Source: Bryum argenteum
Taxonomy: Eukaryota; Streptophyta; Bryopsida; Bryales; Bryaceae
Direction: 5' to 3'
NCBI GenBank assembly: GCA_037043015.1
Contig: CM073322.1
Span: 27,432,364-27,496,363 of the forward strand
DNA: 64,000 nucleotides
In this document: one piece after another, positions 3,631 to 62,460 of the stretch
Layout: the number at the start of each line of letters is the position of its first letter
Position numbering within the stretch: position 1 is the stretch's first letter
Notes under the pieces: model-generated
What the model was told of the DNA's origin: nothing
Databases searched by the model: none
What the model saw: only the letters and a program-made list of their open reading frames with translations
Translations under genes and position numbers: made by a program

Positions 3631-3941
3631 TATTTTTTTATTTTTTTTCTCTTCTCTTTTCTGTGATATAAATAATCTTCAAATTCTCAAATTTATTTAG
3701 GGGCTGGTTGCCCCCCTTTTCGTCGCAGCCCCTGCTCGACCGGCCTGCTGACGCGAGGTCACACCCGGCCAGCAGGGGTCGGAGCCCACCAGCCTATGCT
3801 GACTAGATTGGCTGGGCTGCAAATCTTGCTGTGGCCAGGCCATCAGGCAATTGCAATCTGTTACTCCAATGCCAAGTCTCTTAGGTTTTGATAGTTTTGT
3901 GAAATGTGATACACTCTGATGAAATTGTTGTATACCACTCC
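3631..3941. other. Low-complexity AT block and GC-rich block
   Basis: A T/A-rich low-complexity run is followed by a GC-rich patch (about 3705-3840) containing repeated CAGCAGGGG and GCAGCCCCTG words. It is compositionally like the block at 3480-3600. No gene is seen. Confidence 0.35.
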
Positions 3942-4913: not shown

Positions 4914-5727
4914 GCAAGCTAGTGCTCTGTTTGACGATGTATTCGATTGATACTTCATTGTTTACTTTGTCGTATACGATTGATACTTATTTTGTTAACA
5001 AATAGTAAACAATTGTTGTATCCATAAACAAGCTAGAAATTACACTTTACTTTGCTTGTAGATTTCAATGACCTTGTCTTTATGCAATATACTATAGTAA
5101 GTTGAGTTTTATCCTTTGATACTCTATGTTTCAGTATCTACTACTTAAGGTAGATAGTTTGTTTTTGTTTTTGTTTTAGACATGACGTTATGATTTAGGG
5201 GGCCGCCGGTCGGTGAGGGCACATGAGATGTTGTTGAAAGGAGATTTCTTTGTAGAATTGTGGAAAGTGATCGGATTGCAATTCAGACCGAAGGATCTCA
5301 AGATTTTGAATTTCCAAGTATTTATGGTCTAGAATATTGAACTATCAAGAATACTGAAATTTTTAACTTTTACAAATTTGAAACCTTAAAGCCCCAATTT
5401 ACTATCTCTATGCACTACCGAGGGTGTGAATAGATTCTTTTACTTTTATAATACTTTCGACCACAAGACCATATAACTAAGCATACTTGTCATTATCTGG
5501 AGTAATTATTCCAAAAATTCCTCGTTGGATACTTATCACTTGGGAAATCATAACATCCAAAGTTTGTGAAAAGGTTTTTTCAGGGTAACGATAAAAAGGC
5601 CAATTATTGAACTTTCACAAATATTCAAAAAAAAAAAATGGTAAATTATTTCTTTGAAGATTGTCGTTTCAATTTGTAGACACTGCCTTGTAAAATTGGT
5701 GATAGTTTCAACTTGGGAATTTGAGTA
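4914..5727. other. AT-rich DNA with degraded TTAA-family sequence
   Basis: No gene was found. The segment around 5385-5460 (TCTATGCACTACCGAGGG and following) resembles the subterminal region of other TTAA-family copies (near 37290 and 6150), so it is probably a decayed copy without recognisable ends. Confidence 0.35.
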
Positions 5728-5943
5728 CACTAAATAGGTAGATTATTGTTAGATACACTAATTTATATAAACATGTTATAAGTTTTTACTGTTTGTCAAT
5801 ATTTTTACCCTCAACATCCGTCAAGATGGGGATCCTTCCACAATATTGGAATCAATACTCTTGGTAATTTTTTTTACCAGAAGTAAAAACTTACAGCATT
5901 TTCAAATCTTATAAAAATCTAACACTAATCTACCTATTCAGTG
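5728..5943. mobile_element. 216-bp TA-flanked MITE, copy 1
   Basis: Ends are CACTAAATAGGTAGATTA-like on the left and its inverted complement ending in CTACCTATTCAGTG on the right, with TA at both borders. It is the same length as, and nearly identical to, the copy at 55678-55893. Internal inverted words AAGTTTTTACT and AGTAAAAACTT give further fold-back. There is no coding capacity. The TA target and short inverted ends fit a Tc1/mariner-type MITE; CACTA elements also begin CACTA but make 3-bp duplications, which are not seen here. Confidence 0.8.
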
Positions 5944-6088
5944 TAGTGATTTGGTTATTGAACATATGAGCCATATGACGGAGTCCACAAATCACAAATA
6001 AAGCTATCATCGACTTCAAATTTTGATTGCACATGTTCATTAAGTCAATCGGGATTTAAATTTTTTTATGATTTTGAATGCATCTTAA

Positions 6089-6526
6089 CTCTTAAACTTT
6101 ATTGGTGTTTTTTTGGAAGCTTAAGACTTTACAACTTTGAATAATTATCTCCATGCACTCCTAGGGTGTGAACCAAATTTGTTTCCTTTTTTTAAACTTT
6201 CAATTGTAGGATCTTCTACCTAAGACTATTTTCAATTACTGTTACAAAAATTGATTGTTGTATATTTACCACACAACATCCAGTGTTTGTCTCCCAAGGT
6301 TTTTTAGGCACTGCGAAGGTTGTTTTTGAAAATTTTGGAGGTTGCCCTCATAAAATTGGTAAACATTTTGACTTGAGATACCGTGGAATTTGAGTGGTGA
6401 TTTAGTAATGAACATAAGAAAAAGTTTTAAAAAATTACATTTTAAAGCTTCTCCATCTCAGCTCACAACCCAAGGATTGTCCAAAATTGCAATGAAGCCA
6501 TTTCACCTTTCTTAGGCTTTTAGGGG
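6089..6526. mobile_element. Diverged TTAA-family element
   Basis: The left border is TTAA followed by CTCTTAAACTTTATTGG; the right border is GGCTTTTAGGGG followed by CTAA, a one-base change from TTAA. The interior near 6150-6200 (CTCCATGCACTCCTAGGG, then a CTTTCAATTGTAGGATCTT block) matches the subterminal region of other copies. It is shorter and more decayed than copies 1 to 4. Confidence 0.5.
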
Positions 6527-6530
6527 CTAA

Positions 6531-7601
6531 CTTGCAAAAATATGATAATATATGCAAAGATATATGTTATTTTAGACAGTCCTTGGGTTACTTTAACCCA
6601 TAAATGTCCTTGCTATTTTTTCAGTCAATTTACATAAATTTTGAAAGTTCCATAAAGAAAATTGAAAGTAAGGTATTCAAACCTCAACTGTACAATCACA
6701 TGGGTTTATTTAAGAGTCATGAGGCCTTATAGATTGCGATGTCATAGTATATTTGTACTAAAAAATGATTGTGAAATTTTCAGCATTTTTACTTTGAAGT
6801 GGAAATACTATTGACAAACAAATTGCAATCAAAATTTTCACAAACAAGAAAGTTGTTCACCTTCATCTCAAAATACTCTAGAAACTTTAAAAAAACACCA
6901 AAAAAATCTTGGCTCAAATAATATGCTTGCAATTGTATAAATTACCTCATATTTTATAAAGGAAGAATAGTCTTGATCAAAACCTCTTGCACTAAATTCC
7001 ATTCCGTGTCTTCAAAACATATTGGATATCATTAAGATTTCTATAGCATGAACTAAACTTGAATTGGATTCCAACCCAAAATTAAATTTGAAATTCAACG
7101 GCGTATGTAGGAAATACAACTGCTCAAAGACCATGCATTTTTGGGTCCACTTTTTAGACCTAGTGATGCTTAGGAGTTAAGGGGACATAACTTCTTCATG
7201 CACTGCCCATGTTTGACAAAATACTTGGGGTATGATATTGAATTAAATATAGCTTTTGTAGCAAAGATCCCAAATTTTGAAACACATTTATAAGATTAAA
7301 AATATGGTGCATAATGTTTAAGTGACTAATTGTAATTGACTAAAAAGATGTAAATTGGAAATCACTTGAAATTAACCCCCTAAAGATTCTTTAGAGCCGA
7401 AATGGGTTTTTGTTGTGTCGCACAACCTAGATGAGGGGTCTACCTTTGATATTATAGACCATGAATTAGTGTGAGAGTTCCCTGTGCTACAAGGTGTGTG
7501 TGCAAATTCAAATGCGCAAAGTCAATTTCCAAGTTTTGAATTTTTGTACACAATTTCTTTTTCAAGCCCAAATAGGGCAGCAACAAAAAAAAAATCTAGT
7601 G

Positions 7602-7635
<34 letters not shown>

Positions 7636-8238
7636 AGAAATGTGTTTATAGATATATTACTACCCAACTTTTCAACATCTCCAAGTTGTAAATACCATTG
7701 CTTTTACAAGGGAAACCCTCAAAATTTTCAAAAAAAATCTCCACAATGCTCAAAAAAACTTAGGAGACAAACTTGGGATGTTATGATTTCTCAAATGGTA
7801 AACATCCAACAATCAAAATTTGAAACAATAATAAAAAATAGTCCTTATTACAAGATATTACAATGGGGAGTTCAAGAAAAGAAAATAAACATTGGTTCTC
7901 ACTCCAAGAGTGCATAGAGGTAGCAAATTGCATTTTTGAGGTTCTAAGCTCCCGAAACACACAAGGAGCTTCAGAGGTTCATATCTTTATCTAGTCATGT
8001 TTCTACAGTAACAAAAGAACATGAACTCATCCCATTGAAATGCCTCATATTCACAATCCTAGAACATTCATAATCTAATTGCAATAAATTCTGCATACAA
8101 ATCCAAAATACACATTCTTTGATGCATCAAAACCTTCTTACACCTGCAACCAAGATTATTGAAAACTGAATTAAATAAGTAAAAGAAAAATAGGCACAAT
8201 ACAAAAGTCACCAATCCACCCATCTCAACTTGTTGAAT
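6531..8238. other. AT-rich DNA with solitary TTAA-family ends
   Basis: No gene is supported. A right-type end (GCTTAGGAG then TTAA, 7168-7180) and a left-type end (TTAA at 7372-7375 then CCCCCTAAAG) are visible. A T tract of about 25 bases lies at 7604-7628. The rest looks like decayed transposon sequence. Confidence 0.4.
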
Positions 8239-22401: not shown

Positions 22402-23305
22402 CCCCTAAATTTCCTTGTTGTTTTGAGAGCAAGAAGTCTCAAATCTGCCTTTTTCAAATCCTATGCACTCCTGGCCATGTGAATAAAATCTTTTATCTAT
22501 TTTTTGAACTTTCAACCGTAGAATCTTGTACTTTACTTGTTTTTGAGCTACTTCTAAATTTTTCAACCGTTGAATTTTCTACATTTGTGAGTTCGTAATG
22601 TTCAAAGTTGATGCAAAAGTTTTTTGGCCATTGCTTAAGACACATAGTGTAAATGGTGCCAAGGGCAAGTTGAAGTTCGTTACCCCAAAGATTTTGGACA
22701 TATTTTTTTCCATATAGGTAATCTAGTTGTATACGCTCATGAAAATTTTTAGAGGCTCACTCCGCTATTTTGACCTTCGTGCAAATTGTTCACTGGAATA
22801 AGGTCTAAAAACAATGATATAGAAAAACATGCACCATATATTTATTGAAATTTTTGAACAGTGAGTAGGTGCCTTTACGAGTTTGTGAATCTACAGAATA
22901 AAAAATTTGGAAAAAATCCTAAATTCCAGATTTTGTCTATCTTAAAAAGAAAAATTGTAAAACTATGAGAAATCATTAAGATTGTTTTTGTAAATTTTTG
23001 AGGCTACCCTTCTAAAATTGGTAAGATCTTCAACTTGGATCACTTTAGATCTTGAGTAGTGGTTTGATTATGGTTATATTTTCAAAAAAACTCTAAATTT
23101 AAACTGCCCGTTTTGGACTTGAAACCTAAAATTTATAGATGAAGATTTGAAATTGGAATTTGGCTATGCAAATTATACCAGAGAAATTTTGTATTATAAG
23201 GAGCATCATGTAAAAATATTTTGCAAAAACAATGATTTAACCCTTCTTAAATGGGCTGCCTAAAATCTCAAAAAACCCATTTTGGGTTTTGAGGATACTT
23301 AGAGG
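22402..23305. mobile_element. TTAA-flanked element, copy 2 (lacks the nad2 insert)
   Basis: The borders are TTAA at 22398-22401 followed by CCCCTAAATTTCC, and GGATACTTAGAGG followed by TTAA at 23306-23309. The left 200 bp match the element at 34405 (CTTGTTGTTTTG, then a TTTCAACCGTAGAATCTT block). The right part aligns with it around CTGCCCG...CTAAAATTT and GGGCTGCC...AAATC. At the point where the other copy carries nad2 DNA, this one simply reads GGAGCATCATGTAAAAAT (about 23201-23218). There is no transposase. Confidence 0.7.
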
Positions 23306-34400: not shown

Positions 34401-34404
34401 TTAA

Positions 34405-35637
34405 CCCCTAAACGACCATGTTGTTTTGTGAGCTCCAAACTCCGAAGTTGCAACTCTATACCACCTTGTAAACTTTGGAGTGTGAGAATATTTTTTACAC
34501 TTTTTTGAAACTTTCAACCGTATGATCTTGAAGATAACTATTATTAGAGGTAGTGGCTGAAATTTCAACCGTTGGATCGTAGCCATTTGTAAGATCGTAA
34601 CATTCAAAGTTGATGAAATTCTTTTTTCAGCAAGCATAGTCGACTTTGTGCAAAGGAAAACGTGATGCTTATTACCTTAAACATCTAGCTCATATTTTTT
34701 TCCATGTATATAACTAAGTTGCGCATGCCCATGCAAAATTTTAGACACTCATTTTGCTTTTTGAACCTTCATGCAATTAATTTACTTGAAGAAGGTAGAA
34801 ATCAAGGATTTGGTAAAACATGCACCACGTTTATTGTATATGGTTGAGGGGAAAAATGACCGGTGAGAATATCCCTTCTTGAGTTTTTGACTTTCAAGAA
34901 CAAAAAATCCCAAAAATTCCAAAATCTCAAATTTTAGCAAATTTTGAAAGAAAAAATTGAAATATCAAAAGAAACTTTGAATCTAGCTCTTGTAATTTTT
35001 GAAGGGTGCCCTTGTAGGATTGGTAAAAGTTTCAACGTGGGTCACTTGGAAACCTAAGTACAAAATCAATCAAGAAAAGATTTCAAAAAATAAAAAAATA
35101 AAAAAAAAGTAAAAATTAAAAGTTTTTTTCTGCCCGCCCTAAGGCTGAAAACTAAAATTTGCGTTTAAGAAATCCATAGGTGGAGTTTGACTTTGCAAAT
35201 TTTCCCACACACACCTAGTAGTATAGGGAACATCCAGTAATTCAGAGTCTCGCTTTGATGCTGCAGTCACATAAAAACATAAACTTTGAAGCTCAATAGC
35301 TAAATACATGGCAATTAGATCGTAAGCCGAAATCATGAAGAGCATACTGCAAGTAGAAAGTAGAATTAAGACAATAGATTCAAAAGCATTCAAACTCTCT
35401 TCTTTGAAATAACCCAGACACATAACTATAGTACTAGCCGTACTTATTAATAGAAAGAATTGGCAAACATATGTAAAATTGTCTATTATTAAATTATTAT
35501 AGAATAAATTGGCAACAGTTAGAGGTGTGCTAGAAGCGACCGATAAAAATCTTAGGCAAAAATATTACTTTTAACATCTTAACTTAGGCTGCCCGAAATC
35601 GCAAATCTCTTAATCGAAGGCCTTGGTAGTTTAGGGG
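34405..35637. mobile_element. TTAA-flanked element, copy 3, carrying mitochondrial nad2 DNA
   Basis: TTAA at 34401-34404 and 35638-35641 flanks ends CCCCTAAACGACCATG and, read inward from the right, CCCCTAAACTACCAAG. The left 200 bp carry the family's subterminal blocks (TTTTGTGAGCTCCAAACTC, then CTTTCAACCGTATGATCTT). No transposase is present. About 310 bp near the right end (35239-35550) are not family sequence but mitochondrial nad2, and family-like sequence resumes up to the right end. It is the longest copy here (1233 bp) because of that insert. Confidence 0.75.
35239..35550 (-). pseudogene. nad2: Mitochondrial nad2 fragment (NUMT) inside a TTAA element
   Basis: Read on the minus strand, one open frame without stops encodes about 103 residues of NADH dehydrogenase subunit 2, including STPLTVANLFYNNLIIDNFT, ESIVLILLSTCSMLFMISAY and DLIAMYLAIELQSLCFY, up to ASKRDSE. 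This is an internal part of the roughly 490-residue subunit and covers parts of the early membrane helices. Both ends are cut: similarity stops after SE (next residues LLDVP) and begins near VASS. Subunit 2 belongs to the membrane arm of respiratory complex I, and the fragment cannot function here. The unbroken frame indicates fairly recent transfer. The residues (CLGYFKEESLNAFES) look more like bryophyte than seed-plant nad2, by memory of the family. Confidence 0.9.
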
Positions 35638-35641
35638 TTAA

Positions 35642-37235: not shown

Positions 37236-37535
37236 TTAACCCCTAAAACTCCTTGTGTGAATTTGGAGCTTGAAACATTAACCTCCAATTTTCTACCTCT
37301 ATGCACTCTTGGGAGTGTAAATCAATTTTCTTGCTTTCTTAAAACTTCCAAGCATAAGATTTTACAGTCTCGCTTATAGGTGGTTCTATCTTAACCCCTA
37401 AAGAACTAAGGCCTTGAAGTTAAACTTGAGAAAAGCTCTATGGGAGCCTTTGGTCTTTTAGGGTTTAAGGTATGCACACAACCTCTACACATGTAATGTC
37501 ATACTATCTCACACTTAACCCATAAAGCAGAAAGG
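37236..37535. mobile_element. Cluster of TTAA-family ends
   Basis: Left-type ends follow TTAA at 37236-37239 (CCCCTAAAACTCCTTG) and 37391-37394 (CCCCTAAAGAACTAAGG), with a third, less exact one near 37516 (TTAACCCATAAAG). A right-type CTTTTAGGGTTTAA lies at 37455-37468. The subterminal block TCTATGCACTCTTGGGAG is present. Nested or shuffled copies are likely; I cannot pair the ends with confidence. Confidence 0.5.
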
Positions 37536-62027: not shown

Positions 62028-62031
62028 TTAA

Positions 62032-62393
62032 CCCTTAAATGCCCTTCGGGTCTGAAATGGGCAGCCCAAAATTGGATCACAGCATCTTTTGGACTTGGGC
62101 ATCATGAATAGTGCACTTTTTGAACTTGAGCAATGTGAATGAGCCAATCAATGATGAGCTTGCAACCTCCTACAAGGTTATGTACCACCCCAACCTACCT
62201 ATCATAATCCTTTCAAAGCACAAAATCACTCATACAAATTGTGATTTGAATTGTCAAATTTCACTTTTTCAATGCATCAGAAGAGGGTGACCAGTTTGAC
62301 ATCAAAATATAAGTGAAAAGTTGAGTACAATGAGAGTTACAGGGAAGATTCTGTTGGAATCAAGCCCCTCGGGCTTGCTTGGGCGTTTAAGGG
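62032..62393. mobile_element. TTAA-flanked element, copy 4 (short)
   Basis: Ends CCCTTAAATGCCC and GGGCGTTTAAGGG are inverted with one mismatch, and TTAA borders both (62028-62031 and 62394-62397). At 362 bp it is the shortest clear copy. CCCTTCGGGT near the left end and CCCCTCGGGCTTGC near the right give a second inverted word. There is no coding capacity. Confidence 0.72.
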
Positions 62394-62460
62394 TTAAAAA
62401 AGAATAAGAACCTACCTTTTGTGAGCTAACAAATGACATCGTATACTATTGTCGACACTA

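Follow-up and report, generated by a model that had tools for sequence, protein, structure and literature searches.

How does a fragment of a mitochondrial gene come to lie inside a nuclear DNA transposon, and did the transposon carry it there? The question is raised by a locus in Bryum argenteum, within a stretch of 64,000 nucleotides that was analysed as a whole (the window, C2:27432364-27496363, in a genome of 258.8 Mb in 25 contigs). Positions 34405-35637 are a copy of a TTAA-bordered DNA transposon inside which lie 303 bp of mitochondrial nad2. The first-pass annotation, made from the window alone, had seen a TTAA element with matching inverted ends holding nad2, and both the 303-bp insert and the intact site in all 39 of the other copies that were fetched bear this out.

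The host element and its family

The features of the locus are as follows.

34401-34404, no strand: TTAA, left copy of a 4-bp target-site duplication (TTAA flanks both ends in 32 of 40 copies)
34405-34418, plus strand: left inverted end CCCCTAAACGACCA, pairing with the right end (CCCCTAAACTACCA when complemented)
34405-35240, plus strand: left part of the element, 836 bp, about 92-94% identical to 39 other scored places
35241-35543, minus strand (antisense): nad2 fragment, 303 bp, within one exon, 101 stop-free codons
35544-35637, plus strand: right part of the element, 94 bp, ending TGGTAGTTTAGGGG, placed by alignment with family copies
35638-35641, no strand: TTAA, right copy of the target-site duplication, pairing with the left TTAA
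22398-23309, plus strand: diverged relative of the element, no nad2, 65% identity over 917 aligned columns

The genome was searched with 34405-35637, and 40 of 4400 first-look candidates were scored. Besides the window copy these comprise 39 places that match over query positions 1-836, some of them from base 2 or 3. All 39 were fetched and mapped, and for seven a full-length alignment with the window was made. Flanking sequences were read for all 40 copies (i.e. the 39 and the window copy). Outside the CCCC...GGGG ends they are TTAA/TTAA in 32 copies, CTAG/CTAG in L023 and TTAT/TTAT in L047, while in the remaining six one side is altered or mis-anchored. From the CTAG and TTAT pairs the duplication is seen to be 4 bp long. 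L023 and L047 are rare instances of other target sites of this family.

One family copy (L030, C9:3962600-3964300) has a second TTAA element of about 240 bp nested inside it, so that the same site can be read before and after insertion; CTTAACTTAGG has become CTTAA-CCCCTAAAGG...CCTTTAGGGG-TTAACTTAGG. In this true transposon event the TTAA is duplicated and the inserted sequence has CCCCTAAA ends. The nad2 insert has neither.

The motif GTTTAGGGGTTAA occurs exactly at 3904 sites in the genome, against 28 for the reversed control motif; it is common to related families, so that 3904 is not the copy number of the window element family. A longer left-end motif has 279 exact matches and its control none. 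Elsewhere in the window further TTAACCC.../...GGGTTAA pairs, or element-type matches of 61-67%, are found at 37391-37468, 62028-62397, 7477-7977 and 5420-6435, the first of these being a possible miniature element of 78 bp. On the minus strand at 1297-2313 there is a frame of 338 amino acids that by eye has the look of a Ty1-copia gag.

The empty site and the junctions

The relatives match query positions 1-836 and then resume from 1140, leaving 837-1139 as extra sequence in the window copy, and the stretch around CAGTAAAAATC is uninterrupted in 39 of 39 other fetched copies. The insert is thus 35241-35543, 303 bp. Family sequence is present to the right of nad2 (the 94 bp at 35544-35637), and no longer mitochondrial match runs through the end of the element. 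The first-pass annotation had taken the empty site from the related copy at 22402-23305, with the join at about 23201-23218. That copy is real but distant, the equivalent of the nad2 join lies near 23213 as had been guessed, and the match to the right of the join is weak taken alone (E 0.026). The site is far better defined by the close copies.

At the empty site the letters are CCAGTAA-AAATC, and at the filled site CCAGTAA-TTCAG...CCGA-TAAAAATC; the mtDNA-like sequence at the two junctions reads GAAAATTCAG and CCAATAAGATAG. Element and mtDNA-like sequence therefore overlap by AA (2 bp) on the left and TAA (3 bp) on the right, and because these letters are shared the ends of the insert are ambiguous by 2 and 3 bp respectively. 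No bases of the target element were lost, and the insert junctions have no transposon signature, with no TTAA at the insert ends. The overlaps are compatible with non-homologous end-joining, but also occur by chance, the probability of such an overlap being about 0.18 (2 bp) and about 0.06 (3 bp) per junction, which is not rare. Alternatively, the TAA at the right junction may represent a short duplication of the target. A route to NUMTs in which organelle DNA serves as filler in break repair, with microhomology of 1-7 bp, is described in PMC7037861.

The insert and the other nad2 copies

Read on the minus strand, the insert matches plant complex I Nad2 in a search of the PDB (lowest E 9.3e-39, covering residues 5-101 of 101). 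A Pfam search with the 101-residue translation, a short piece, returned no family. The exon is the one that we take to be nad2 exon 2. The insert also matches two other places in the genome at 98% over 301 bp, and together with the empty site in the 39 other copies this excludes a chance resemblance. The Nad2 match, and the 98% identity to longer stretches that contain group II intron domains next to the exon, show the insert to be of mitochondrial type; the location is nuclear, in a dispersed transposon copy on a contig of 34.6 Mb.

The reading frame of the insert is unbroken over its 101 codons, as had been noted. This carries no weight because a stop-free frame persists in 75% of 20,000 simulations in which six random changes were made to the stretch. 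Selection for the open frame was considered and found to be unsupported, given this figure and the four of seven changes that alter the protein.

The nad2 search gave eight matches in the genome, all eight candidates being scored. Near-full copies at 98% lie at C4:5328203 and C2:28487173, the latter about 1 Mb from the window on the same contig; the remaining five are shorter, at 72-90%. There is no mitochondrial contig among the eight matches. Between the two long copies identity is 99.6% across at least 6.9 kb, as far as the fetched sequence reaches, and complete within the 303 bp. A scan of the C4 copy for RNA families and tRNAs found group II intron domains, one of which adjoins the nad2 exon, as well as three tRNAs; tRNA-Arg(ACG) and tRNA-Gly(GCC), which are among them, point to a bryophyte. 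The two long copies (in L049, C4:5323500-5333400, and L050, C2:28482500-28492400) may be recent separate transfers, or one transfer that was duplicated.

In both long copies the sequence common to the nad2 copies continues beyond both of the window junctions, so the piece in the window is a sub-fragment. Because the ends of the matches to the window nearly coincide, a self-contained mobile nad2 unit was considered; it was rejected since the shared sequence continues past these ends in L010, L011 and the older copies and is cut off in the window copy alone.

The immediate source of the filler could have been one of the nuclear nad2 copies (e.g. C2:28487173) and not mtDNA itself. The two nuclear copies at 98%, being identical within the 303 bp, are inseparable from mtDNA as a source, but no private change common to the insert and either of them was found, and we regard this origin as highly improbable. 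Note that it can overlap the explanation that we prefer, altering only where the filler was copied from.

Does any other element carry nad2? The first-pass annotation had proposed a search for further TTAA elements containing nad2, and none was found; only one of the eight nad2 matches, that in the window, is borne by an element. No match to the element family at E<=1e-5 was present in the 5-9.9 kb fetched around each of the seven other nad2 loci. The statement that the chimaera is single rests on the nad2 search, the element-family search having scored 40 of 4400 candidates.

The ages of the insert and of its host

Relative to the C4 copy the insert has seven changes in 303 positions, all of them private to the insert (2.3%, interval 0.9-4.8%), the two nuclear copies standing in for the mitochondrial sequence in this comparison. 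At the changed sites the other covering nad2 copies agree with the long copies; for one site the two long copies alone give coverage. One of the changes, next to the right junction, may have arisen in the joining itself. An assembly artefact, with reads of mitochondrial origin wrongly joined into the element, is barely credible in the face of these data, since a contaminant would give neither seven changes relative to the covering nad2 copies nor an exact empty site on removal of the insert.

Of 924 sites compared, the window element departs from the majority of its family at 37, including 17 that are private to it, and its terminal branch is 4.4% in a tree of 39 tips from which L030 was left out because of its nested insertion. 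The values of 2.3% and 4.4% are not significantly different (two-sided p 0.09) and their intervals overlap. The divergences fit a history in which the copy was already resident when the insert arrived, and lend no support to an older capture.

These data bear on whether the element took up nad2 elsewhere, and then moved with its load to the present TTAA site by cut-and-paste. Both element ends and both TTAA sequences are intact around the insert, so the loaded copy is mobile in principle. A single cut-and-paste move leaves one copy only, and because piggyBac excision is scarless such a move is invisible in one genome; the overlapping divergence intervals also allow it. Yet no second loaded copy was found (among eight of eight nad2 candidates and 40 scored element copies), the insert is nominally younger than the terminal branch of its host, and the scheme requires one event more than insertion into a resident copy. 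A loaded move is therefore very unlikely in our judgement, and we are equally doubtful of what it would entail, namely that a piggyBac element of a land plant gained a mitochondrial fragment and transposed with it at least once, organelle DNA being moved by a TTAA transposon.

Relationship of the host element to piggyBac

The inverted ends of the family begin with CCC (CCCCTAAAC...), and motifs given for piggyBac ends in PMC10813416 are CCCTC, CCCTT, CCCAT and CACTA. The TTAA duplication typical of piggyBac is seen directly, in the 32 of 40 copies and in the nested before-and-after site. Kolobok elements also duplicate TTAA, with termini described in PMC9587614 as 5'-RR...YY-3'; the termini here are CC...GG, and Kolobok was rejected as the host superfamily.

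A search of the genome with the transposase profile PF13843 found at least 116 places (116 of 775 candidates were scored), all above the family cut-off, and many in stop-free frames of more than 500 codons. The same profile gave no match in 14 control genomes. Eighteen of the loci were examined (L056-L073, in which two pairs are the same place). Four of the 18 (L066, L067, L068 and L071) match the window family at 68-69% over some 395-600 columns, the alignment starting immediately behind a TTAA and at base 1 of the family. In L060 there is another match to the family, an inner one, and in the other 13 there are either none or short ones of at most 67 columns.

The stretches L066 with L074, and L067 with L075, share a 5.7-kb unit at 98% identity that is bounded by TTAA-CCCCTAAAGG and CCTTTAGGGG-TTAA. 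On comparison of the family copy L002 with this unit the left end aligns over 1-566 at 69% and the right end over 724-927 at 63%, stopping exactly at the TTAA, whereas nothing aligns when L002 is reversed as a control. There are two short further matches of L002 outside the unit. The unit contains a frame of 824 amino acids that matches PF13843 with E 1e-75, piggyBat with E 3.2e-28 and another transposase in the PDB with E 3.8e-25. It represents a related autonomous element with a predicted transposase of the piggyBac type, and the family in the window may be mobilised by this protein. On these grounds we have filed the host as a non-autonomous relative of piggyBac. We note that two 4.9-kb piggyBac stretches are 99.8% alike; the piggyBac population of this genome is very large, and in part apparently recent.

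MITE-like elements of the piggyBac superfamily share with the window family a TTAA duplication, short CCC inverted ends and end homology to transposase units of the same genome. The family departs from the typical ones in its length (about 927 bp), its land-plant host and its great number.

Discussion

We conclude, with a probability of roughly 0.88, that the locus is an ordinary NUMT that became joined by break repair into a resident non-autonomous piggyBac-like element. The piggyBac-like copy would first have integrated at a TTAA site. A break within the copy would have followed, to be healed with 303 bp of mtDNA as filler, probably by end-joining where 2-3 bp are shared. The element would probably have come first and nad2 second. 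The first-pass annotation had read the locus as capture by the element. The parts that it described are real, but uptake and spread by the element are not borne out, since there is a single chimaera, the junctions resemble end-joining and divergence in the insert does not exceed that of its host. Its remark that a TTAA element holding organelle DNA would be unusual pointed to something genuine, the element being a piggyBac relative.

The literature gives this element some context. In the main text of a review of land-plant transposons (PMC9033089) the piggyBac superfamily goes unmentioned, and passages in PMC10794571 and PMC10813416 name piggyBac for plants in general terms. Matches to the term in a moss genome paper (PMC10619864) do not concern the transposon, the passage being about 'piggybacking' of gene expression. 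Among the titles and abstracts retrieved on TTAA and piggyBac elements of plants and mosses, and on organelle DNA within transposons, none described the present case.

A NUMT within a transposon copy is a known kind of event, and the present one shows mitochondrial filler DNA cleanly, the empty site being defined to the base by 39 sister copies. The host element is of more interest, as part of a very large piggyBac population in the nucleus of a land plant with stop-free transposase frames and thousands of ends, and this population deserves a study of its own.

In Pack-MULEs and gene-capturing Helitrons the intact ends of an element enclose part of a foreign gene, and in this the window element resembles them. 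It differs in that no second loaded copy was found, in joins that are like those of break repair, in the mitochondrial source and in being of the TTAA type. The closer likeness is to plant NUMTs as described in PMC7037861, where short mtDNA lies in a chromosome with microhomology at the joins and no loss of target, and decays with no sign of selection. Nothing essential separates the insert from these; its particular feature is that the target is a piggyBac-type copy, which gives a very good empty site.
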